Positions 2,876 to 26,090 of a stretch of DNA of 37,070 nt are shown piece by piece (the stretch's first letter is position 1; each line of letters begins with the position of its first letter). A program made the translations under genes and the position numbers. Origin of the DNA: a virus. The notes below the pieces were generated by a model. It worked only from the letters and a program-made list of their open reading frames with translations, searched no databases and had not been told where the DNA came from. The stretch covers positions 1 through 37,070 of IMG/VR virus record IMGVR_UViG_3300046328_001234; one strand, given 5' to 3'.

Positions 2876-2912
2876 TAGACATGCTAGACACCGCCGCAAT
2901 GCAAGACGATTT

Positions 2913-2948
2913 AGGAGCCGCTTGAGGAGCCGCTTGAGGATCCGCTTG
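2913..2948. repeat. Three 12-bp direct repeats (AGGAGCCGCTTG)
   Basis: AGGAGCCGCTTG at 2913-2924 and 2925-2936, and AGGATCCGCTTG at 2937-2948. They encode an EPLEEPLEDPLAD acidic repeat in the frame of the gene annotated from 2960. They sit exactly where that frame has to be joined to the upstream ATG at 2881, so repeat instability may have caused the frame problem. Confidence 0.75.
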
Positions 2949-2959
2949 CCGACTCTCCA

Positions 2960-3475
2960 TTGCCTAGACGTAGACCCACTGTTAGACCCAGCCAAGCACC
3001 ATCCACCAGTCTGGTTGCACCAACGCGAGAGCCGATACGACCAAAAATTACTACAAAATTCTGGTCATATATTGGGATGGCGGTAGTCTCAACAGCTTTT
3101 GTGATTGCGGCGATCGTGAACAGTCAACCAAAGCCCCCTGAAGTTGTCCAACCTTTTAAAGTAAAAACACTTGACGACGCGGCTCCCGATATCCTCAAGC
3201 GCAATTCTGCTCAGCAAGTAAAGAGCTTGGAACAAACTAACGCTGCCGCAAAGGAAGCCCTAGCCCAGTCCGACAACGCCGCAATCCGCAAAATTGCTAC
3301 CAAGCATCTACTTGACGCATTGAAGGCTATCAACTCAGGCGACAAAGAGTGCTTGCGCTCCGAAATCGGTCTCGATTGCTGGCTAAATATCCAAGAGGGC
3401 TTGTGGGCTGATCGCCTAGAGCAAGCATCTTTGGTTATGGATGGCGGACAAATGCTGGCAGCTTCGGCTCAGTGA
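2960..3475 (+). CDS. Single-pass membrane protein of the envelope cassette (interrupted at both ends)
   Basis: The 171-residue frame from TTG 2960 has a basic Pro-rich N-terminus, one membrane segment at residues 35-54 and a soluble helical C-terminal part with a Cys pair (KECLRSEIGLDCW). The natural gene is probably longer. ATG 2881 has GGGAG upstream and encodes MLDTAAMQDDL, then ends at TGA 2923. A +1 shift at TTA-G (2911-2914) continues as EPLEEPLEDPLADSP into this protein. At the 3' end, the TGA at 3473 is followed in the same frame by about 52 sense codons ending at 3634, four bases into the next gene. Function unknown. Neighbours (translocase, wall hydrolase) suggest an envelope complex. 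Confidence 0.65.
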   Translation: MPRRRPTVRPSQAPSTSLVAPTREPIRPKITTKFWSYIGMAVVSTAFVIAAIVNSQPKPPEVVQPFKVKTLDDAAPDILKRNSAQQVKSLEQTNAAAKEALAQSDNAAIRKIATKHLLDALKAINSGDKECLRSEIGLDCWLNIQEGLWADRLEQASLVMDGGQMLAASAQ

Positions 3476-3634
3476 AGAGCTATTGAGTTGGCTCGCTCAG
3501 GCAGTGTCGATCTCCCTAAACTCGATCTTGAAATAATCAAACTGGCTCTACGCGATCGCTATAATACTCGGCTTGCCTTACTCCAATCTAACGCCAATGC
3601 AAAGGCGCGTATTTTTAACAAAAACGGGCTATGA
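3476..3634 (+). pseudogene. Same-frame 3' remnant of the membrane protein after an in-frame TGA
   Basis: Directly after TGA 3473-3475 the same frame continues RAIELARSGSVDLPKLDLEI and beyond to KNGL, ending at TGA 3632-3634. That stop overlaps the ATG of the translocase gene as ATGA, the coupling used elsewhere in this operon. The composition is normal coding sequence and includes a HIP1 site. Read as the original C-terminus cut off by a nonsense change (CGA or similar to TGA), or reached by read-through. Confidence 0.65.
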
Positions 3635-5016
3635 AGAGATCGACAATAAATATCATGCTTGGGCTTAGCTGCTTTGCGTGGCTTTCCGCTGCTGGATATT
3701 CCGCTCTAATTCCTAGAGACTATATGTTCACAAGTCCCGAAGAGTGGAAGGCTGCTGACTCCGCTCTTAACGATCGCGGAGTCAATATAAAGCTAGAGCC
3801 CAACTCATACAACAGCCCTATCGCAACCATTCTTTGCTTAGTACCAGCAATCGCCTCTGGTATTTTGCTGGGGGCGAACCTTGAGGATGAAGAGTCAGCA
3901 AAGGCGGATGAGCCCCCAGCAGCCGAGCCACGAGCAAGGCAGTCGGGCGCATCGCCAACGATCGTCAACAGGATTACAAATACCAATATTAATCCTGCGA
4001 TCGCTAATCAGCCTACCCGACAACCCGCTAGAGTCACCAAGCCCACTCGGTTTGAAGAGGAATTCTATGATGACGAACAACCTGTAGCTGTCACCGAATA
4101 TTCCAAAGGAGGAGTATTCACTGGTGATATTATTGGAGAAATCGCCGCCACAGATTTACATGTGCTGATTGCCACAAAAACAGGCGCAGGTAAATCCACT
4201 CTTCTTAAAGCTGTTATTCAAAGAATAAAGAAGGACAGCCCTGCCTCCAAATTCGGTATAGTTGATCCAAAAACAACTGACTGGCTTGGGCTTCAAGGCG
4301 AGGAAGGTGTGGTCACATACCTAGATCAAGATAGCCAAGAAGAGCAGCTCGATGCAGCTTCTGAGCAGATTAGCCACGCATTTCAAATTCTGAAGAACAG
4401 GATTCGTGCCAAGCAAAAGGCGTTACGCGAAGGTGGAAAAACCCCAGTTTTTGCGCCTCAATACTTAATCCTCGATGAATGGTGGGTGTTGCAAGATATG
4501 ATCGCCTTCTCGAAGAGGGAGGCGGAATTCTTTGGAATGCTCAATCAGGTCGTGGCTATGGGTAGGGAGATGAACGTTCGGCTTATCTTGGTCAGCCAAA
4601 CTCACCTGTGCACTCAGATCGGGTTTAGCGATCCAGTCAGGGGTTGCTTCTCCGTCCTCGCTTTGGGGCGTATGGGTGCAAAGAACGATGTTGGTTATAG
4701 ACCAATTGAGGCGGCGCTCGCTGATGCGAAACTGTTTCCAAACAAGCAGCAACGTCTATCGCTTGCTGCTACTCTTGGAGACGCGATCGCGCTGGCGAGA
4801 AAACAAGGCGATCGCCCAGTACTGCTCACCACAATGGGTATACCCAAAATCGCCCTGATGCCAGATCTCAAGCATTTGGATGACTTCAGGTTCGACTCCG
4901 AGGAGTCGGATGATGCTGAAGATCCGATGGGTGATCTTATTGCTGAACTCGATAGGATTGCCGCGATCGAGAGTCAGACAAACTTAGTCCCGTTCCCCAA
5001 AGCGGTTAACTTATGA
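3631..5016 (+). CDS. FtsK/VirD4-like membrane-anchored DNA translocase ATPase
   Basis: 461 residues. Two N-terminal membrane segments (about 7-26 and 63-82) are followed by a polar linker to residue 155. A P-loop ATPase domain then has Walker A TKTGAGKST at 182-190, Walker B YLILDE at 278-283 followed by WW, and a sensor-like LVSQTH near 320-325. This is the architecture of FtsK/HerA and type IV coupling-protein ATPases, which pump DNA or protein at the membrane. The ATPase core is compact, and no C-terminal FtsK gamma domain is visible. It sits between membrane proteins and a TM-M23-lysozyme protein with 4-bp overlaps. Likely the motor of an envelope-spanning transfer or egress complex (inference); a virion packaging role is an alternative. 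Confidence 0.8.
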   Translation: MKRSTINIMLGLSCFAWLSAAGYSALIPRDYMFTSPEEWKAADSALNDRGVNIKLEPNSYNSPIATILCLVPAIASGILLGANLEDEESAKADEPPAAEPRARQSGASPTIVNRITNTNINPAIANQPTRQPARVTKPTRFEEEFYDDEQPVAVTEYSKGGVFTGDIIGEIAATDLHVLIATKTGAGKSTLLKAVIQRIKKDSPASKFGIVDPKTTDWLGLQGEEGVVTYLDQDSQEEQLDAASEQISHAFQILKNRIRAKQKALREGGKTPVFAPQYLILDEWWVLQDMIAFSKREAEFFGMLNQVVAMGREMNVRLILVSQTHLCTQIGFSDPVRGCFSVLALGRMGAKNDVGYRPIEAALADAKLFPNKQQRLSLAATLGDAIALARKQGDRPVLLTTMGIPKIALMPDLKHLDDFRFDSEESDDAEDPMGDLIAELDRIAAIESQTNLVPFPKAVNL

Positions 5017-5543
5017 ATGTATCAAATATGCCACCCCAAGGTGGAGGAAGAGATAGACCAATGAAAAGTGTTAACCCAGATGATTTTGCTATTGTTTACG
5101 GAAAAGGCGGTTCAGTCGCGATCGACTATGACCGCGATGGTAAGGCTGATGGTAGACCCTCTGGAGAGCCTCCTCTCTGGATGGTTGACTCGAAAAACTG
5201 GTGGTCGATCACTGTCGCTGTACGCGCCTTGTTTTCTGCCGCTTGGCACAACAAATTAGCCGCAGTCGGCTTGTTCTTCGCCGCACTCGGAATTCTCCCG
5301 TTCGTGTGGATGGGTGGCTTAGCCTTGCTATCCAAGGATGCTCGGCAACTCACAAACGCTGAGGGCGGCGGACATTCGGGTGCGATGGGCAACAACCTTG
5401 TTGTCAATATCAAAAATACCGTGTCTGGTCCTGTTACATCGGTTTACAACGACACGATCGAAGCAAACCTCAAGGGTGCTAACGACGTGGCGTTCTCATC
5501 ACCCCGCGAAGGCAGAGCAGCTTCCGCTTCTACACGTCGATAA
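5013..5543 (+). CDS. Hypothetical membrane protein
   Basis: 176 residues; ATG overlaps the translocase stop (ATGA). The N-terminal region is polar and contains DYDRDGKADG, a calcium-loop-like acidic motif (DxDxDGxxD). A hydrophobic membrane segment lies at about residues 81-105, preceded by an amphipathic stretch from 63. The C-terminal 65 residues are polar and low in hydrophobics (NNLVVNIKNTVSGPV). No family is recognised. Operon position makes it a probable partner of the translocase. Confidence 0.7.
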   Translation: MNVSNMPPQGGGRDRPMKSVNPDDFAIVYGKGGSVAIDYDRDGKADGRPSGEPPLWMVDSKNWWSITVAVRALFSAAWHNKLAAVGLFFAALGILPFVWMGGLALLSKDARQLTNAEGGGHSGAMGNNLVVNIKNTVSGPVTSVYNDTIEANLKGANDVAFSSPREGRAASASTRR

Positions 5544-5755: not shown

Positions 5756-6244
5756 ATGAAGAAGCGTGATATAGCGATAAACTTAGCTCTGCCAGCTTTG
5801 GTTATCGCTTTCTTACTAAATATGGCTGAAGAAGGCTATCTAAAATTCGTGGATCTGCGACCGATCGCAGAAACAGAATTAGCCAAAGTCCTTGATGGGA
5901 ATAAAGATGATTGCATCACAATCCCAACCCAAACCACGCCCGTTCCCATGTCTCAGGCACTCAAGCTTGAAGGTAAGACAGTAAGGCAAGTACTAAAAGA
6001 ATTTCCTACCTATTTCTGCGAAGGTAGGAGCGGCGCTATTAAATATTTCAAATTCCTCACAGACTCGACTATCCCTTTATATGTAACGTTTGAAAAGAGT
6101 TTAGACGAGCCGATTACCTATGCTTTTAACGAACCAAAAGCAGCGCCTACCTCCAAAACCGAGACTGGAGGACCTGCCAGAAGTAGATCAATTCAACTAC
6201 CACGAAAGACTGGAACTGACGGAAAGGCGATGGAGAAGCGCTAA
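5756..6244 (+). CDS. Membrane-anchored hypothetical protein
   Basis: 162 residues. An N-terminal hydrophobic anchor at about residues 8-22 (INLALPALVIAFLLN) is followed by a soluble domain with two cysteines (DDCITIP and TYFCEG), possibly a disulfide in the periplasm. The C-terminal 40 residues are basic and low-complexity and overlap the next gene by 125 bp. No family is recognised. Placed between a secreted peptide and the wall hydrolase, it is likely another part of the same envelope cassette. Confidence 0.65.
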   Translation: MKKRDIAINLALPALVIAFLLNMAEEGYLKFVDLRPIAETELAKVLDGNKDDCITIPTQTTPVPMSQALKLEGKTVRQVLKEFPTYFCEGRSGAIKYFKFLTDSTIPLYVTFEKSLDEPITYAFNEPKAAPTSKTETGGPARSRSIQLPRKTGTDGKAMEKR

Positions 6245-6503
6245 AGTCTTTGCGATCATACTCCTACTGGTATTTATGCTCGTCAAGCCTTTAAACGATA
6301 CCCTGAAATGGTCTTACAGGTTGGTGGGATTACCCACCACCGATGCTTCCAAGCTCGCGACGAGCAAAGAATATAAGCCCAGCGACATCTTAAACCAACC
6401 TCTCAAGGAGGGTGATATCGTTTCTGGCTTTCTCATTCGGCTTATGGCGAGCGCACGAAGCCGAATGAGAAAGCCAGCTCCAAGCATGGAGGGGTGGACA
6501 TAG
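6120..6503 (+). CDS. N-terminal membrane-anchor part of the M23-lysozyme wall hydrolase (frame broken)
   Basis: From ATG 6120 the frame encodes a polar cytoplasmic leader, a membrane segment at residues about 42-56 (KVFAIILLLVFMLV) and an extracytoplasmic linker ending LKEGDIVSGF at 6430, the usual lead-in to an M23 peptidase domain. From there the frame is wrong: it reads through a perfect 20-bp palindrome and stops at TAG 6501-6503. The M23 domain resumes in the frame of 6494-7363. Removing 5 (or 2) bases in the palindrome joins them as one protein of about 412 residues. Confidence 0.65.
   Translation: MLLTNQKQRLPPKPRLEDLPEVDQFNYHERLELTERRWRSAKVFAIILLLVFMLVKPLNDTLKWSYRLVGLPTTDASKLATSKEYKPSDILNQPLKEGDIVSGFLIRLMASARSRMRKPAPSMEGWT
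6424..6477. repeat. Perfect 20-bp palindrome (14-nt loop) inside the M23 peptidase gene
   Basis: Arms 6424-6443 and 6458-6477 are exact reverse complements; the loop is 6444-6457. The right arm plus loop encode the genuine M23 sequence (YGERTKPNEKAS), so the left arm appears to be the altered copy. The palindrome coincides with the frame break. It has no transposon-like flanking repeat, and its length fits template-switch correction of an imperfect hairpin, or a recoding signal. Confidence 0.9.
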
Positions 6504-7363
6504 GAACTCCCGTTGGGACTCCTCTCTATGTAATCGGCAGACCAAACCCCGACAGTGCATTTGGCGGTTTCGCCGATGTGTTTTGCTCTATACCCAGTAG
6601 TGACGACACTAGGGGATATGCTGCTTACGTCAAGACCCCAGATTTTCCAGATATTGAGTTTGTTTACTACCACTTAAAACCTTTGAGTTGTGCCAGTGGC
6701 AGGCTCAACACAGGTTCTAAATTCGCCGAGACTGGCAGTAGCGGAAACGTGACTGGACCTCATTTGCATTTTGAGACAAAACTGAGAGGGGACTGGTCTA
6801 AGCTCGACTTCCGTGAGGAGCGTTTTGAGCCAAAGAGATGGCAAGTCCAGTGGACTCTTGAAGGCAAAGAGCCCAGTAAAGACTCTGCCCCTACCGTTGC
6901 ATCTTCAGAAGTAGAAGCCTTCCTTCTTGCTATTCGCCATGCGGAGGGTACAAACAGCAAAAAAGCGTATACAACCATGTTTACGGGCAAGCAATTCAGT
7001 GATCTCAGTAAGCACCCAGAACAGGTTAACTGTACTATAGGTCCTGACGGCAAAGATCTGTGCTCCGCAGCGGCAGGCGCTTATCAGTACATGCCTAAGA
7101 CGTGGGCTAGGATCTCAAAAAAAATCAACGCCGCAGATTTCTCCCCAGAGAATCAAGAGCGTGGCGCAGTTGAACTCCTCAAAGAAAGAGGTGCTTTCAA
7201 GCTTATTCAGGAAGGCAAGATAGAGACTGCCTTTACCTATGTTTGTGAAGAGTGGGCAAGCGTTTCCTGCTACACACACAAAACCAAAGGTGCATACCCT
7301 AATCAAGCGGTTAAACCTATTAGCGAACTGATGGAAGTCTATAGAAAGGCATTGAAAAAATAA
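6494..7363 (+). CDS. M23 zinc peptidase plus lambda-lysozyme-like (GH104) transglycosylase domain
   Basis: 289 residues from the nominal GTG 6494. The first zinc ligand lies just upstream: H at 6485-6487 in K-H-G-G-V-D, with Y-G-E-R further up, so the GTG is not the true domain start. The M23 domain has YYHLKP (H60) and the GPHLHFE motif (H90, H92). From residue 138 a second domain has AIRHAEGT (catalytic-type Glu 151), FSDLSKHP, AAGAYQYMPKTW and DFSPENQERGAVELLKERGA, the pattern of phage lambda endolysin R. It cleaves peptidoglycan cross-links and glycan strands. Joined to the upstream membrane anchor it would be an envelope-tethered wall-remodelling enzyme, either for lysis or for a transfer channel. 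Confidence 0.88.
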   Translation: MDIGTPVGTPLYVIGRPNPDSAFGGFADVFCSIPSSDDTRGYAAYVKTPDFPDIEFVYYHLKPLSCASGRLNTGSKFAETGSSGNVTGPHLHFETKLRGDWSKLDFREERFEPKRWQVQWTLEGKEPSKDSAPTVASSEVEAFLLAIRHAEGTNSKKAYTTMFTGKQFSDLSKHPEQVNCTIGPDGKDLCSAAAGAYQYMPKTWARISKKINAADFSPENQERGAVELLKERGAFKLIQEGKIETAFTYVCEEWASVSCYTHKTKGAYPNQAVKPISELMEVYRKALKK

Positions 7364-10043: not shown

Positions 10044-10325
10044 ATGTTTACCGAACAGATTTGGAGATCTGAGGGGATAGAGTTTAATCTGCGTCGAATG
10101 GGAGTTTTAATACCCAAGGATATCGCCGATACGATCGCTTGCTTGGAAAGAGATGAGCTACATCGCTTGATAGAACTTCTAAACCTAGCTGTTTGGCTTG
10201 AGTCTTACGAGGAGTGGGAGGCTTTTTCGGATGAGCCTCTTTTCCGTAAGGCAAACAGATTCCTTGAAGCTCAAGACAATAAGACTTGGCTGGGTGTCTT
10301 AAAGGTATTGATTGGGCTTTTGTGA
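10044..10325 (+). CDS. Hypothetical protein, 94 aa
   Basis: ATG 10044 is preceded by GGAGG (10034-10038), which sets this start over the ATG at 10032. The product is mostly helical and acidic, with MGVLIPKDIADTIACLERDE and SYEEWEAFSDEPLFRKANRF. No domain recognised. It follows the ParB-like gene by one base and overlaps nothing functional downstream. Confidence 0.65.
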   Translation: MFTEQIWRSEGIEFNLRRMGVLIPKDIADTIACLERDELHRLIELLNLAVWLESYEEWEAFSDEPLFRKANRFLEAQDNKTWLGVLKVLIGLL

Positions 10326-10341
10326 TAACTACGGGGTTTGT

Positions 10342-10620
10342 ATGCGAGAGCACAGGGTCAAGACGGTGAATCCACACTTCCAAAACGTCTGGGAAGGTAG
10401 CAAGACATTCGAGCTTCGCAAGGACGATCGGAATTATTGTGTAGGGGATATCCTACTGCTCAAAGAGTATTATCCCGAATCCGATAGTTATAGCTGTCGC
10501 AGTATCCGCTGTAAGGTCTCCCATACTCTGAGGCATGAAGATTTCTTTGCTGTGACAGAAGGCTGGGTCATTTTGAGTATCATTATCACAGAGAGGTTAG
10601 GATGTACGAAAATCTATTAA
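10342..10620 (+). CDS. DUF3850 (ASCH/PUA-like) domain protein
   Basis: 92 residues from ATG 10342. The pattern HRVKTVNPHFQNVWEGSKTF, ELRKDDR, then VGDILLLKEY matches DUF3850, a small PUA/ASCH-like beta-barrel fold common in phages and thought to bind RNA or modified bases. Conserved features seen are the E-x-R-x-x-D-R segment and the G-D-x-L-x-L-x-E-Y strand. The longer frame from 10312 overlaps the upstream gene and lacks a ribosome site. The next gene overlaps its 3' end by 19 bp. Confidence 0.85.
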   Translation: MREHRVKTVNPHFQNVWEGSKTFELRKDDRNYCVGDILLLKEYYPESDSYSCRSIRCKVSHTLRHEDFFAVTEGWVILSIIITERLGCTKIY

Positions 10621-11295: not shown

Positions 11296-11633
11296 TTTAG
11301 ATCTGAATTCCGTAAATCTGTGTTAGAATTACGGAAGCAGTTACCCCCTGACGTAGATCTGGTAAAGTAAAGGCATACCCGCGATCGCTTCGCTACCCGC
11401 GCCGAAAAGTTGCAGAAAGTACGGAAACGGAAACCCCTTCAAAAGTAGGTAAAGATTAGAAGAAAGCGATCGCACCCCAATATTTGTTAATCCCGACATA
11501 GCGAGAGTTGGACGACATAGGCGGATCTGAATCAGCAAGGGATTTAGCCTACTCCAACAAAATACCGACCGAGAACAGTCTCGGTCGGTATTTTGTTGGT
11601 AACATACTGCAATGCGATTATTGTCATAAAAAC
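11296..11633. other. Non-coding spacer between the clamp group and the packaging group
   Basis: 338 bases with no convincing gene. It holds a variant of the recurrent motif (TGTGTTAGAATTAC near 11319-11332, flanked by CCGTAA/TTACGG), two HIP1 octamers, and the perfect hairpin at 11554-11599. Open frames across it have no ribosome site and atypical composition. Confidence 0.6.
11554..11599. terminator. Perfect 21-bp hairpin, probably a bidirectional terminator
   Basis: Arms 11554-11574 and 11579-11599 pair perfectly around an ACAG loop. A GC-rich core (ACCGACCGAGA) is flanked by AAAAT on the left and ATTTT on the right, as in intrinsic terminators that work in both directions. It lies 34 bp upstream of the next gene start and would insulate that gene from read-through. 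Confidence 0.75.
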
Positions 11634-18632: not shown

Positions 18633-18903
18633 CGGTCGCACCGTGAATGGCTTCAGCCTTTGGTTTGCGACCCCGCTTTGCAGGGGGCTCAAGTACTGCT
18701 GGTTCGGGGCGATCGCGTAAACCATCCTTACCTCGACCGATATTGATAGCTCTTTCGGCGATCGTTAGGCAGAAATCCGAGGGCGAATCTTTGAGCATCT
18801 CCTCAATAAGCATAGAGTAGGGGGTGGTACTCCCAAAACCACCTTGCTCGTTTTGGGCGATTTGCACCTCTTCAAAAAGCTTCTGTAGTCTAGCTAGCTT
18901 CAT
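18625..18903 (-). CDS. Small protein, paralogue of the adjacent downstream gene (copy 1)
   Basis: 92 residues; ATG 18903 overlaps the NrdJ stop (ATGA) with GGAGG just upstream. Shares the TTPYS and DFCL motifs with the next gene, then has a basic AT-hook-like tail (AKRGRKPKAE). The tail suggests DNA binding. Tandem duplication with divergence of the C-termini. Confidence 0.7.
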   Translation of the reverse strand: MKLARLQKLFEEVQIAQNEQGGFGSTTPYSMLIEEMLKDSPSDFCLTIAERAINIGRGKDGLRDRPEPAVLEPPAKRGRKPKAEAIHGATDG

Positions 18904-21900
18904 AAAACCTCCGCATTGAATGAATCGGATTTAATTTGTTCCAAAGTTTCTTTTAGTTCGCACAACCCTGTATCACAGGCAGCAGTCTCAGGGGAGAGTG
19001 CGTCGCCTTGATCGTAGAACTTATAGAGATTATCGAAGTCGTAGGTTTCGATACCTGCTTGCTTTAATCTGAACGCGAGAGCAACTTCTTTTTGCGCTTT
19101 ACGTTCCGCGATCGCCTGCTCAAGCTCGTGATACTTTGCACGATCAATCGGCTCGAAAGGCATACGAGGATAGGTTTGCATATCGTCAAAGCGAGCAAGA
19201 ATGGCTGAGCTTATGTAGCCTTCGTCATTCTGGATCGCATCATAGATGCACTTAGCCAAAGCCTCTACTTCATTCTCACGCAATTCCAAGGTGCTACTGG
19301 TGTTCATAACCAGAATATTGTCGGTAAGCGTAAAGTGATTTGTTTGAGGTTCCATAACGCACCAGCCATACCTCTTCCCTTCAAGCCTATTAATCTCTGA
19401 GACTTTCCACTGACAGGGCTGCGATTCGGAGTTGTTAAAGTGGTCGAGGTGGTGAGGACGAAGAATAAGCTCCTCAGAGATAGTCCCCTTGCTAAAGACA
19501 AGAATGAAGGCTCCTCCGTCTTTTTTGTAGGAGTCGGAACCGAACCACTTGTAACTACAAAGTTTCACCCCAATTCGGGGGAGTTGCTCAGAAAGAAAGT
19601 TAATAAGTTCTTGACTGATCGTAGAGAGGGAAATTACTGACTGATACACACTTCCGTCAGTTGCCAATAATCCTGCAAAGAATCCTGCTAGATAGCTTTG
19701 GCTGCAATCTCTTTTTGGGAGGTACTTCCACTCTGTCGGCAACCCATAGATGCGAGTTTGGTCTATGTCATCTCGCTCACGAGCATTGCTAAACCCATCA
19801 AAGTACGAGACAAGATGCCTTTTGCCTCCGCAGAGATACAGTTGACAGCCAATTTCTCTGCTAGTACCACTTCTATATATAGAACCGTCTCCATAAACAA
19901 GACCGTGCCTAATACCATCTAAATCCAAAGTTAGAACCTCAAAATCCGTACTATTCAGAACAAATCGATGCCCAGTCTTCAGCTCAGCCGCAGTAACTAT
20001 TTTGGTCACACAGCTACCCCCCGAAATTCTTTTTACTGGGAATCGATGACATAGAGTTGAGATAATCCGTTTTTCCTTGCCAGTTTTACCTTCGCGGAGA
20101 ATAATCTCAACCATCTCCCTTTCGTCTTCCGTTTTTACGACTTTCGCTTCTACCCAATTACCATCTTTGTTTAAGACGGTAGTGATATCGCCAGCCTCAA
20201 AGTCCTGAAAACTCTTAATCCCTTGGGCTGTCAAGAAAGTAGTGTCTCTATCAAAACAATTGTGCTTTGTGTAATGCTTCTGAACCTGCATCATGAAGTC
20301 GAACTGGGCTACGGCGCTGAACTTTGAAATATCAATCGCGTCTGCCCCGTCCAAATCTGCCCAAACCGTCTTCATGGGGATTTCGATAAGCCATTCAGTG
20401 CAGCGATAATCGAACGGGTCATCAAGTAAGACCCCATTCTCGTCCTTGTCTGACTGACTTGGCAGTACCGAGTGTCCCAACGCGATCGCGGCAAAGGCGA
20501 CAGGGTGATTCTTCCGCACAGTGATACGGCGAATCATATAAGCTGCCTTGGGTGGGTGATAGCCAGGCGAAGCTCCTGTGAGTAGAGATTTTGTTCCACT
20601 GGGTTGTACTGCGGTAGATCTGTTTGGCACTTTCAGTCCATGGCGATCGCAATACTCTTGTACGGTGTCTTCAACAATTTGCCTCCAGTCAGACAAATAG
20701 TTTTGCTCGGCTTCCTTGAAGTATTCGGATAAGTAGGTGTAGTCAGCCTCCAAGAGTGTAAACAAGTCTGTGGCTTCAGGGCTAAAAGCTTTGATCTTTG
20801 AGTCGTTGAGCAAGTCAAGAATACGACCCCATTCAGCAGGGCGACCAGCTTCCCACCACTTCAGCCAATCCACACCAAAAGCTTTTACGAAGAAATCGAA
20901 AATTCCCGTTGGGCAGACCGCCACAATTGGATCGAGTTCGCGGGACTTTTGGTAGCGATCGCCTAAAGCGGATAGATCGTGATTCAGTAAAGCGACCACG
21001 GACAATGCGCCAGCTCTAAACGCTTCTTTCTGTTCGCCAAAATTATTGGGGTCAAGTTGGTTAGCGTGAACCTCTGCCAAATTGCAGTTTTTCGTCAGGG
21101 TGTTACCGAAAACACCTTGATTAAATTCTGGTTCGGTGAAACAAAATGAATCCCGCGCTTCTGGCAGCTCCTCTACGGACGTGATCACTTGGTACTTACC
21201 CCTACATTTTGGCTTGTGAGATCTACTTACATCTAGTCGGTGGCAGGGGATGGAACCACACTCGGTAATTTGGATGCCATAGAGATCGTGCTTCCTTTTC
21301 CCGTAGTTAGTGATTTCACCCGCTTTGTATATCTCACAAATCGAAGAACGAACTCCACACTTTGCCAGTAGGAGCTGCAACCTTCTAGCCCTCCCATACT
21401 GAGAGATGTATATACGAATATCACCCGAATTAGTGTTGCTTCCATCGGTATCAGCCAATCCCGCGATAAAATTCAAGATCGCTTCCTTATTCCAAGACGC
21501 AATAGCATCGAGTCCGTCTAGACTGTTTTTTAGCGACAAAATCATCATGTGGTCTAATACGTGGTTTAGACCCTTGACCTCAACACAGGTGTTTTTATAC
21601 CCCTCGTACTGCTTTGGCTCACTCTTGTTCCCGACGACAGGAAGATGCTGTTTTTCTCCGTGTAATACGAGTTGATTTCTAAGAAAAGAACCGTCCTTGT
21701 TTCTGGCTACAGTGCCATCACCAACCATTACCCCAAGCGTATAAGCCTTTTGCGGATCTACGAAAGCTCCATCTTTGTACTCAATACTGAACGGCTTAGT
21801 CTGCAACTGGTACTTCGATTGGCTGGAGAGATTCTTGGCTTGAACAACAGAGTAGTCAAGCTGGAACCTATTCTTCACAAGAAATCGATGGTATTCCGTT

Positions 21901-23384
21901 GTGTCCAAATAAGATCCATCTCCAAAGCGAACTCGGAGCATCCTTTGATCTTCGCCCGTCTTAAAAGGAGTAACCCTACTCCACCTTTCGCCATTCCAGA
22001 TCTCTACCTCCCTACCAACAAGGGACTCGATAGTAGCCATCCCTTCCCTTGTAATAAGTAGGGTATCGCCAGCAACGCAGAAATTGTCTTTCAGTAAAAT
22101 TTCACCACAGGGGTTCAAACCCAGTCTGAGTAAGCGATCGAGCAATTCCTCTTTACCCTTATCACTTTCCCAGAAGCTCCAGCCATATTTCTCTTGGTTG
22201 AGTTTGTCAAGATAAAGTCCCGCAAAAGTAGCACCTTCCTTAGTCTCGTCAACCTCGGCTTCGTAGAGACGAATAAATTCTATGCGTTTAGCATCGGTGT
22301 CTAACAGGTCGGCATTCGCTCTAGCGATCGCCTCTGGTGCATATTGAATAGCACCTTCGCCAGACTGGTATTGCTTGGTTACAGATGCAAGGGTGTCTGC
22401 CCATGACGGCTTGCGATGAAATACTCGCGTGTGGTTTGCCATTCTCAAAGCATCACGTTCAGGATCGATACTCCATTTACCGTCAGGGAGCTGAATCCAA
22501 AGGTTATCCTTGGCAACTTCCCCCAATTCATCGTCCGAAGAAAATTGGCGCATTCCAGCACTGCGACGGATCGACCCTGCCACGATCGCTACCGCAGCCT
22601 CGTCAATCAACAGGCAGCATTCAGCAGAAGTCAAATTTCGTCCAATCGCCCCATTCAGAATCTTGGCGACACGAGGGAATACATCGGGCAACTTCACGGG
22701 ATTCGCTGTACCGCCAAAGCTTTGTAGCAGCTCTCCAGAAGGTCGGATATTAGACATATCGACATCAACCACAAAAAGTGCTGGCGCAGGTAATGATGTC
22801 GGTCTTGAGCTGAGTGCCAGCAGGTAGTGGTAAGCATCGACCCAACCCTGCCTAGAATCGCCCACAGTAATTGTGCAGCGAATTTTGTCGCGATTACCAT
22901 CATCGGGATGCAGTAAAGTAGTTGTCCTTTCTTGGCGATCGCCCTTAGCGATCGCACCGATTTCTCCAACAACTGTTACTTCCAATCGATTACGAATGGC
23001 AGGTAGTCGCGAGATGCATCTGCCTTCCAATACAGCGCCAGTGCCACAACCTTGCATCGCCAAATTCATTACGCTAGCAAAAGATTGCCAGTCCACAATG
23101 TCGGTCGATGAGCAGTTATATGCACCAGCAAAATTCTCAGGTCTGAGTGACCACTCAGTACCGCCCACCCACAACCAACGACCACTGGTGAGGGTTTTTA
23201 GTTGAGATTGCATTCTATAAACAAGGTCTCTTTCTTCATCGGTGAACTTACCAAGAACAGCGATCGCGGGGATAGTGCGATCGCATACATTCTTCCAGTT
23301 CTCAAGCAATCCTGATACTAAGCGGCGGAAATATGTACGCGCAGCTACGACACTGCCGAGAGTGCCAGAGGGGAATTGGGACAT
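18900..23384 (-). CDS. nrdJ: Class II (adenosylcobalamin-dependent) ribonucleotide reductase with two inteins
   Basis: 1494-residue precursor; about 844 after removal of two inteins, close to single-chain ribonucleoside-triphosphate reductases (Lactobacillus leichmannii type). It reduces ribonucleotides to deoxyribonucleotides using B12. Visible residues: C91 in YNCSS; radical-type C426 in NPCGE; the rejoined CNLAEV after intein 1 (C767); the QPSGTKSLL loop near 927-935; and the C-terminal dithiol C1470/C1475 (CDTGLC) that re-reduces the active site. Intein 1 spans C436-N766 and intein 2 C1043-N1361. The start overlaps the upstream gene by 40 bp. With dcd and thyX it supplies dNTPs in the same transcription direction. 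Confidence 0.96.
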   Translation of the reverse strand: MSQFPSGTLGSVVAARTYFRRLVSGLLENWKNVCDRTIPAIAVLGKFTDEERDLVYRMQSQLKTLTSGRWLWVGGTEWSLRPENFAGAYNCSSTDIVDWQSFASVMNLAMQGCGTGAVLEGRCISRLPAIRNRLEVTVVGEIGAIAKGDRQERTTTLLHPDDGNRDKIRCTITVGDSRQGWVDAYHYLLALSSRPTSLPAPALFVVDVDMSNIRPSGELLQSFGGTANPVKLPDVFPRVAKILNGAIGRNLTSAECCLLIDEAAVAIVAGSIRRSAGMRQFSSDDELGEVAKDNLWIQLPDGKWSIDPERDALRMANHTRVFHRKPSWADTLASVTKQYQSGEGAIQYAPEAIARANADLLDTDAKRIEFIRLYEAEVDETKEGATFAGLYLDKLNQEKYGWSFWESDKGKEELLDRLLRLGLNPCGEILLKDNFCVAGDTLLITREGMATIESLVGREVEIWNGERWSRVTPFKTGEDQRMLRVRFGDGSYLDTTEYHRFLVKNRFQLDYSVVQAKNLSSQSKYQLQTKPFSIEYKDGAFVDPQKAYTLGVMVGDGTVARNKDGSFLRNQLVLHGEKQHLPVVGNKSEPKQYEGYKNTCVEVKGLNHVLDHMMILSLKNSLDGLDAIASWNKEAILNFIAGLADTDGSNTNSGDIRIYISQYGRARRLQLLLAKCGVRSSICEIYKAGEITNYGKRKHDLYGIQITECGSIPCHRLDVSRSHKPKCRGKYQVITSVEELPEARDSFCFTEPEFNQGVFGNTLTKNCNLAEVHANQLDPNNFGEQKEAFRAGALSVVALLNHDLSALGDRYQKSRELDPIVAVCPTGIFDFFVKAFGVDWLKWWEAGRPAEWGRILDLLNDSKIKAFSPEATDLFTLLEADYTYLSEYFKEAEQNYLSDWRQIVEDTVQEYCDRHGLKVPNRSTAVQPSGTKSLLTGASPGYHPPKAAYMIRRITVRKNHPVAFAAIALGHSVLPSQSDKDENGVLLDDPFDYRCTEWLIEIPMKTVWADLDGADAIDISKFSAVAQFDFMMQVQKHYTKHNCFDRDTTFLTAQGIKSFQDFEAGDITTVLNKDGNWVEAKVVKTEDEREMVEIILREGKTGKEKRIISTLCHRFPVKRISGGSCVTKIVTAAELKTGHRFVLNSTDFEVLTLDLDGIRHGLVYGDGSIYRSGTSREIGCQLYLCGGKRHLVSYFDGFSNARERDDIDQTRIYGLPTEWKYLPKRDCSQSYLAGFFAGLLATDGSVYQSVISLSTISQELINFLSEQLPRIGVKLCSYKWFGSDSYKKDGGAFILVFSKGTISEELILRPHHLDHFNNSESQPCQWKVSEINRLEGKRYGWCVMEPQTNHFTLTDNILVMNTSSTLELRENEVEALAKCIYDAIQNDEGYISSAILARFDDMQTYPRMPFEPIDRAKYHELEQAIAERKAQKEVALAFRLKQAGIETYDFDNLYKFYDQGDALSPETAACDTGLCELKETLEQIKSDSFNAEVL
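19302..20258 (-). mobile_element. Intein 2 of NrdJ (LAGLIDADG type)
   Basis: 319 residues, C1043-N1361, inserted at KHN/TSSTLEL; the following residue is Thr. Splicing block A begins CFDRDTTFLT, and the C-terminal block is YGWCVMEPQTNHF ending NILVMN. Two LAGLIDADG-like helices (RHGLVYGDGSIY and AGFFAGLLATDGSVY) mark a homing endonuclease. The residue before the terminal Asn is Met instead of the common His, as in a minority of inteins. Confidence 0.9.
21087..22079 (-). mobile_element. Intein 1 of NrdJ (LAGLIDADG type)
   Basis: 331 residues, C436-N766, inserted at KDNF/CNLAEV within the reductase active-site region; next residue Cys. Block A is CVAGDTLLITREG, block B TTEYHRFLVKN-like, and block F SFCFTEPEFNQGVFGN ending TLTKN. 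LAGLIDADG motifs are YTLGVMVGDGTV and FIAGLADTDGSN, so the homing endonuclease appears intact. The penultimate residue is Lys, not His. Confidence 0.9.
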
Positions 23385-24035: not shown

Positions 24036-24276
24036 TGCTCACCTCTTTGAGGGGGAGTTCCAACCCTTCAAGGCGGTAATTGAAGCCCTCCAAGAAGATG
24101 CTGTCGTTGGAGATACCCCTTTCAAAAAAGTTCACCACAGAAACGGTGCTGTCGGGGCGGCGGATAAAAATTTGAGCTGGTATAAAAGCCTCTAGATTAA
24201 CGATTACGTTGAAGTTCACATCGTAAGGAGCCAAAAGCTTTGTCGCGATCGCTTCAATCTGCTCTTTGTTTAACAT
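24025..24276 (-). CDS. Hypothetical protein, 83 aa
   Basis: Starts MLNKEQIEAIATKLLAPY, like its downstream neighbour. A beta-rich middle (FNVIVNLEAFIPAQIFIRRP) follows. No recognised family. Its start overlaps the thyX stop by 7 bp and its stop overlaps the next gene by 11 bp. Confidence 0.65.
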   Translation of the reverse strand: MLNKEQIEAIATKLLAPYDVNFNVIVNLEAFIPAQIFIRRPDSTVSVVNFFERGISNDSIFLEGFNYRLEGLELPLKEVSNAN

Positions 24277-26090
24277 CCTCTACCCTCCACAAGTTTTCCA
24301 TCTCGATATATCAAAGCCCCAGTCCTCATTTCGTGGCGGACGCTAGCCCACTCATAAAAATTGTCGTTCTTGGTTCTCCAAGGGGCAACTCTCGCAAAGT
24401 GCTCAAGCGGTGTTAAGTGTTTTGGCTTGCTACACCAAAGCTTTTGGAACAATTCGACATCTTTTTTGGGATCTCTGATACCTTCGTGAGTCAGGTAACT
24501 AACTCTGGCACATCGACCGATCCCTACCTGAAGAACGGTTTCAGGGTCGAGATCCGAGTCTTGCTCTGAGTCGATAAAAGGCATGTGCCATTCGTCGATT
24601 CCCCGCTCTTTTGGCTTGCTAGCTGTGTAAGCAAGCTTCATCCTGTTGGCTAGCGCTTGCATCTCAGGCTGGGAATCTGGGTGACACCTCTGCTCAAAGA
24701 AATTCTCATAGTCTGTCCCTGAACAAATAACCGTGATGGAGGAAAATGGCTCAAGCAGTCGATTTGGGATCTGCTTGTGAAGGTTTAGCGCTATAAACCT
24801 TTTTACATGCTTGGTAGCGTCCCTTCGAGCGTCTGCCCAGATCTCTCTGGCTAAATCGATATCATCAATCTCCTTTGCCGCTGACATGCCTGTTTGATTT
24901 TCGCCCCAATACAGTGGGTATACCTCTTGACTTTCGACAAGTTTAATCATTTTCTCAATAGGAATTGCTCTGCTACTGCTGCTGTTCTTGCTATTGTGAA
25001 CGACAACTCCATTGGCAAAGAAATTTGGGAAGTCCCCAGCAATCTCTAAGTCAAATGTTTCCTCAAAGCCGCAAGACCTGATAATTTCAACCTGCTCAAA
25101 TCCAGTCATAAGTGGACATCCTGTTTGCCAGCCTTGAATTTTATGTATTTCTTTGTGCGCCTCTGGGGTAACAGCGATTACATTGTCAATATCGAAGGCG
25201 AGATCGGGTCGCTGGTGTCGGGGAATAACATGATGTATATCAAACGTACTAGATAGATCTTCGCCAGTGATTGCACACTTGCCATTTTGCCTATTACGCA
25301 CAAACTCCTTGTTATTTCTAACCCATTGACAAACCCATTTCCCATCTATTTTGTTAAACGCGCTAGATTCGATCCCAGTACCATACCTGTAGGTCATAAC
25401 CGAGTCAGTCTCAGGCTGTAGTTCTTCCAGCCTGAGCCATCCGCGCCGTGACAAGATCAAATGGTCTTTGCTTGCTTTAACCTCATAGTTTCTGGTTTTG
25501 AGTAAGAAAACTTCTTTTTTCCCAGATCGAAAAACGTTAGAGACGCTAGATAACTGCACCTCATTTGTCACCTCGTTGACCTGCCTGATCGACATCTCCT
25601 TGAGGCGATCGCGGATAGCAAACCTTCTTTTTCCAGTACTACTGTTTCTCCAATTAGTCCATGAATTTGCGTGGGCAAAACACTCTCTACCAACCTTGTA
25701 AGCGCCCTCAATTAGTTTGTCTCGACAAGCTAGATTTAGGTTCAAAGCCTTTGCAAAACCTAGTAAACCAGCAATCTCTTTTGACGAATAATCCCTGTCT
25801 TCTAGATTGGACAAATAAATCCCGTTATGTCTAGAGGTCTCGTGGGGGGTGGAACCGTTTTCCCACTTCTCAGCAAGCTCGGCGATTGTCATTGAGTGGA
25901 CACGTCTTAAACCTTTGGATGTTTTTGCAGGCAGCTCAAAGTCGATACGACTATCTCCAGACAAGCACAACATTCGATGGGTCATGAATTCCGAGTGAAT
26001 CATTCGATGATATGTCAGCACAAAAGTTGTGAGTCGAGTGCCCCAAGGATTGATACTATCGGCGATGATTTCTGCTTTAGGTTGGAACAT
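24270..26090 (-). CDS. thyX: Flavin-dependent thymidylate synthase ThyX with an HNH intein
   Basis: 606-residue precursor, about 281 after splicing. ThyX makes dTMP from dUMP using FAD/NADPH and methylenetetrahydrofolate. The signature is split by the intein: ..EFMTHRML / SKNSSSSRAIP (S367 onward), matching the phage-type form of the R-H-R-x7-S flavin and substrate motif. Downstream features are LNLHKQIPNRLLEPF and SVRHEMRTGAL. The N-terminus (FQPKAEIIADSINPWGTRLT) also fits. It overlaps the broken small gene upstream and a small gene downstream. Together with dcd and nrdJ it makes the element self-sufficient in dTTP supply. Confidence 0.95.
   Translation of the reverse strand: MFQPKAEIIADSINPWGTRLTTFVLTYHRMIHSEFMTHRMLCLSGDSRIDFELPAKTSKGLRRVHSMTIAELAEKWENGSTPHETSRHNGIYLSNLEDRDYSSKEIAGLLGFAKALNLNLACRDKLIEGAYKVGRECFAHANSWTNWRNSSTGKRRFAIRDRLKEMSIRQVNEVTNEVQLSSVSNVFRSGKKEVFLLKTRNYEVKASKDHLILSRRGWLRLEELQPETDSVMTYRYGTGIESSAFNKIDGKWVCQWVRNNKEFVRNRQNGKCAITGEDLSSTFDIHHVIPRHQRPDLAFDIDNVIAVTPEAHKEIHKIQGWQTGCPLMTGFEQVEIIRSCGFEETFDLEIAGDFPNFFANGVVVHNSKNSSSSRAIPIEKMIKLVESQEVYPLYWGENQTGMSAAKEIDDIDLAREIWADARRDATKHVKRFIALNLHKQIPNRLLEPFSSITVICSGTDYENFFEQRCHPDSQPEMQALANRMKLAYTASKPKERGIDEWHMPFIDSEQDSDLDPETVLQVGIGRCARVSYLTHEGIRDPKKDVELFQKLWCSKPKHLTPLEHFARVAPWRTKNDNFYEWASVRHEMRTGALIYRDGKLVEGRGC
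24993..25967 (-). mobile_element. Intein of ThyX with HNH homing endonuclease domain
   Basis: 325 residues, C42-N366; next residue Ser. Block A is CLSGDSRIDFELP, block B VKASKDHLILSRRGW, and block G ends FFANGVVVHN with the canonical His-Asn. The internal nuclease is HNH type: CAITGEDLS, then DIHHVIPRHQRPDLAFDIDN and VTPEAHKEIH. A helical segment (YSSKEIAGLLGFAKALNLN) may add DNA binding. Inserted directly in the ThyX active-site motif. Confidence 0.92.

Follow-up and report, generated by a model that had tools for sequence, protein, structure and literature searches.

A perfect palindrome at the frame break of an M23 peptidase gene in a virus record: probable scar of a quasipalindrome template switch

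The M23 gene and the module around it

The window, meaning the whole stretch of DNA that was analysed, is a virus record of 37,070 bases. The HIP1 sequence (GCGATCGC), which is linked to cyanobacteria, occurred 86 times in it compared with 0.44 occurrences expected from the base composition, an abundance that points to a cyanobacterium as the host of the element. A 21-bp, iteron-like tandem repeat (4.5 copies, 100% identical) was found near the contig end at 130-224.

The gene of interest encodes a membrane-anchored M23 peptidase/lysozyme and is split over two reading frames (Table 1). Frame A carries a hydrophobic anchor segment at about 6246-6300, as judged by eye, and reads through GDIVSGF into LIRLMASARSRMRKPAPSMEGWT before the TAG at 6501-6503. 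Its product shares 47% identity with the first 118 residues of the homologue at locus L003 of the related viral contig G001, a single protein of 382 aa. The domain then resumes in frame B, as originally predicted. This frame bears SAYGERTKPNEKASSKHGGVD, the motifs S-A-Y-G-E-R ... H-G-G-V-D (6437-6499) and H-L-H (6761-6769), and the lysozyme-like domain. The Pfam model Peptidase_M23 (PF01551) scored 33.1 bits in frame B, above the cut-off of 28.7, and gave no match in frame A. A PHROG endolysin family also matched frame B (1.9e-28), and the tblastn matches to this frame carried lysozyme or GH104 annotation. The zinc-ligand His is encoded at 6485-6487, within an HxxxD motif (6485-6499) that is followed by the HxH at 6761-6769. 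No ATG, GTG or TTG was present in frame B from 6416 to 6493. Translation beginning in frame B itself would therefore miss the zinc-ligand His, the first start being the GTG at 6494; on this point the original prediction was correct. Frame B contained no further lesion over its 315 codons, and a six-frame search of the window revealed no M23 motifs beyond the split gene.

Table 1. Features of the M23/FtsK module and of the palindrome (positions in the window).
Feature	Positions	Strand	Remarks
Upstream module gene, broken	2881-3634	+	Frameshift near 2911; in-frame TGA at 3473-3475
FtsK/HerA-like ATPase	3631-5016	+	Intact
Small module protein	5013-5543	+	Intact; 67% identical to L003
Protein overlapping the M23 gene start	5756-6244	+	Intact; 60% identical to L003
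Frame A, N-terminal piece	6120-6503	+	ATG at 6120; GDIVSGF is followed by 23 out-of-frame residues up to the TAG
Frame B (-1 relative to A)	6416-7363	+	M23 domain, then lysozyme-like (endolysin/GH104-like) C-terminal domain
Left arm of the perfect palindrome	6424-6443	+	Recipient arm; holds the net 4-nt loss
Loop	6444-6457	+	14 nt; frame B reads it as part of the conserved Y-G-E-R-T
Right arm	6458-6477	+	Encodes K-P-N-E-K-A in frame B
Only start-codon ORF of frame B	6494-7363	+	GTG at 6494; would omit the first zinc-ligand His

The M23 gene belongs to a module in which the first gene is also broken. The ORF from the ATG at 2881 stops at a TGA at 2923-2925, and the second TGA, at 3473-3475, is flanked by conserved sequence on either side; the L003 counterpart of the 2881-3634 gene is intact as a single ORF of 241 aa. 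Three 12-bp tandem repeats (2913-2948) adjoin the frameshift near 2911. They were dropped as its cause, as 24 nt of repeats keep the frame, and the likelier origin is a small indel close to 2911.

The extent of the damage was assessed by matching 39 ORFs of G001 to the window, one of which proved to be an antisense shadow. Two of the 38 counterparts were disrupted in the window, both of them in the M23/FtsK module. The other interrupted matches were explained by inteins in two cases (the ThyX and ribonucleotide reductase genes) and by an inserted ORF in one, and all three of the remaining apparent in-frame stops lay upstream of the true ATG. The ribonucleotide reductase ORF (18900-23384) holds two apparent inteins and the ThyX ORF (24270-26090) one; G001 has neither the ThyX insert nor the second reductase insert; where the first reductase insert sits in the window, it has two ORFs separated by about 230 bp. 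The ORF at 10312-10620, located where G001 ORF 19221-19871 is continuous, is either an insertion in the window or the result of a fusion in G001.

A second related contig, G002, was 99.93-100% identical to G001 over their shared stretch and carried a 168-bp deletion (L004 1311/1312 relative to L003 5863-6030), by which the upstream module gene loses its end and the FtsK-like gene its start. Of the three related viral contigs, two thus show damage to the module. Relaxed selection on it is favoured by this pattern, and against such a background a broken M23 gene is nothing unusual; judged from its sequence, the module looks dispensable or in decay. An assembly cause for all of the module lesions is possible.

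Motif spacing in homologues and the origin of the palindrome

Exactly at the point where the M23 gene changes frame lies an inverted repeat with two arms of 20 nt, 100% complementary and 14 nt apart, confirming the perfect 20-bp palindrome of the original prediction. No perfect inverted repeat longer than 12 bp (loop of at most 60) turned up in 20 order-1 Markov versions of the window, and a chance origin was rejected. A mobile or repeated element was likewise rejected, as the 141-nt stretch matched nothing but itself within the window record; an exact match to the palindrome arm was not found in viral_contigs either. Folded as an RNA hairpin, the palindrome has a minimum free energy of -45.5 kcal/mol (z -5.73).

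Just one other repeat of at least 16 bp was present in the window, a perfect 21-bp inverted repeat with a 4-nt loop at 11554-11599, outside any well-supported gene. By eye, its stem is GC-rich and lies between A- and T-rich ends (T-rich on both strands), and it is probably a bidirectional terminator; a scan listed just a short inner segment of it, and that on the minus strand. A common cause for this repeat and the M23 palindrome was rejected, as the 11554-11599 repeat precedes the probable start of its ORF and falls in no known gene.

Homologues were reached through the FtsK-like neighbour, which led to the IMG/VR contigs G001 (L003) and G002 (L004); these are identical in the M23 gene, each having one ORF of 382 aa. 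Plasmids of Leptolyngbya, Nostoc and Oscillatoria likewise encode the M23 protein in a single frame, and the Leptolyngbya protein is, as in the window, close to an FtsK-like ATPase. All of these share with the window the motif GD....[FY]x[VI]xSxxGxR. The window differs by its split gene and by the lysozyme-like second domain. This second domain has been swapped among the anchored M23 homologues (window 6860-7363, L003 8990-9397, L007 and L013), being lysozyme-like in the window, SLT in L003, DUF2927 in Leptolyngbya and GH108 in Oscillatoria. Four more distant plasmid rows out of nine were excluded from the spacing count, since L021 had no motif match and L022-L024 were without the GD motif.

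In all five homologue rows, i.e. two viral contigs and three plasmids representing four distinct sequences, the gene was a single ORF with no palindrome, and none encoded two separate proteins split as in the window. From the aromatic residue of GD....[FY] to S-x-x-G-x-R the gap was three residues (9 nt) in each of the five (GDKVLSYEVTSGFGKR, GDTVAGFEITSGFGKR, GDRIGKFSVSSGFGWR, GDEVAGYIVGSDVGYR in the four distinct sequences), compared with 5 nt between GDIVSGF and SAYGER in the window. The left arm has therefore lost 4 nt net, and MAFFT placed a 4-nt gap within it. The right arm is ungapped relative to L003, with 21 residues from S to the D of HxGVD in both, and is for that reason taken as the template arm. 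It had originally been proposed that deleting 5 (or 2) bases within the left arm would restore one protein. The frame arithmetic holds, but the event that it implies, an insertion of 5 or 2 nt, is not supported, as the relatives indicate that 9 nt were replaced by 5, a net loss.

The length change is thus confined to one arm, the other being unchanged relative to L003, and the repeat is more perfect than in that relative (20 bp in the window compared with 7 bp in L003 at the corresponding codons). L003 is the nearest relative and still distant, at about 48% protein identity. Its 7-bp inverted repeat (TGGCTTT/AAAGCCA, 11-nt loop) is one of four repeats of at least 6 bp with a loop of 3-20 in that gene, and may simply reflect shared GGCTT and AAGCC codons; it would be a plausible seed and shows that a seed can exist.

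An arm that has been resized and made exactly complementary, next to an arm that has kept its length, is what quasipalindrome correction produces: the nascent strand serves as template and an imperfect repeat becomes perfect or more perfect, as described in PMC7202029. Yeast CYC1 and phage T4 rIIB gave the first examples of the effect, and E. coli lacZ reporters have been built on an 18-bp quasipalindrome with a 4-bp frameshift (PMC7202029). With relatives that are intact and devoid of the palindrome, and a length change inside one arm, this emerged as the best-supported of the explanations originally put forward. The M23 gene was in our judgement probably once a single frame, broken by one templated quasipalindrome template-switch mutation. 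The stretches coding for [SG]F...S-A-Y and K-P...K-A would already have formed an imperfect inverted repeat. While the DNA was being replicated, the nascent strand would have switched to the opposite arm as template and then back, exchanging about 9 nt of the left arm for 5 nt copied as the complement of the right arm. Such a replacement would have perfected the hairpin and at once shifted the frame by -4 nt, leaving a truncated anchor piece and a catalytic part without a start that takes in the zinc ligand. If SGF is ancestral, the repeat before the mutation must have been fairly long already.

The ancestral left-arm sequence, the template switch and the loss of function are the parts of this explanation that we infer; for the switch this is so because no near-identical relative was found and the ancestral left arm was not seen. 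Searches of genome_contigs and viral_contigs with peptide patterns yielded no near-identical relative, a terminase query returned nothing but a distant 4-kb contig, and no literature on this gene or element was found among open-licence papers.

Artefact, re-initiation and recoding as alternatives

Since frame B is undamaged elsewhere, the break must be recent, tolerated or not real. The last of these would mean that the palindrome arose in library preparation, amplification or assembly and that the gene of the element is intact. The window is an assembled virus record, its frame B is otherwise whole over 315 codons, and false inverted repeats arising from foldback and hairpin artefacts have been described (PMC10908179, PMC6218980, PMC12870357). 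Both flanks, however, run on in the correct genes and on the correct strand, and the difference amounts to just some 9 nt in length, for which two switches are needed, as in the replication event. The other lesions of the module include a point nonsense codon, which such artefacts leave unexplained. We consider an artefact unlikely.

Frame B might instead be a separate protein, made by re-initiation at the GTG at 6494 as a soluble lysozyme with a dead M23 domain. The reading from this GTG overlaps the frame A stop (6501-6503), and the ORF from 6494 to 7363 is intact with the lysozyme domain included. Its product would nevertheless lack the first zinc ligand, and a gene split in this way was seen in none of the five homologue rows, making this reading very improbable.

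The original prediction had also allowed for the two frames being joined by programmed frameshifting or ribosome bypassing, promoted by the hairpin. The window resembles programmed -1 ribosomal frameshifting in the needed shift, which is -1, and in the strong hairpin, the stability of which is given above; it is unlike it in having no slippery heptamer, no spacer and no conservation. In -1 frameshifting the stimulatory structure sits a few nt downstream of the slip site. Here the X XXY YYZ heptamer was absent from 6396-6503, and the usual spacer is missing, since just 8 nt lie between the opening of frame B (6416) and the beginning of the hairpin (6424). For lack of a heptamer and with the wrong hairpin geometry, programmed -1 frameshifting was rejected. 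Bypassing of the T4 gene 60 type could make use of a GGC codon present in both frames (6426 in frame A, 6446 in frame B), but this is the single matched pair and the hop would, by eye, remove the conserved S-A-Y-G motif; with so implausible a product bypassing, too, is improbable. Recoding of either type is moreover conserved in no relative, all five homologue rows being single ORFs, and the adjacent module gene is broken as well. The probability that the frames are joined by recoding is accordingly very small, and smaller still is that of the hairpin being a recoding element without a known slippery site, by which a little anchored M23-lysozyme would still be made.

A probable natural quasipalindrome mutation

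Quasipalindrome template switching, the reading we prefer, places the window beside known mutations of this type (the E. coli thyA hotspot, the lacZ QP reporters and phage T4 rIIB). They are alike in the change from an imperfect to a perfect repeat and in a small frameshifting length change within one arm, here of 4 bp as in the lacZ reporters (PMC7202029). The window differs in being a natural scar in a metagenomic virus record whose ancestor was not observed, and in that the event breaks a frame and does not restore one. The case is ordinary in kind: in all likelihood the M23 gene of a dispensable module was hit by a natural quasipalindrome template-switch mutation, a new instance of an already known mutational mechanism.

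Scars of a mutational mechanism known from the laboratory can thus probably be read in natural cyanophage-like genomes, and a templated change of 4 nt can mimic a programmed recoding site. Cyanobacterial phages and plasmids carry a little-described module, comprising an FtsK-like ATPase, small membrane proteins and an anchored wall hydrolase, to which the locus also draws attention.
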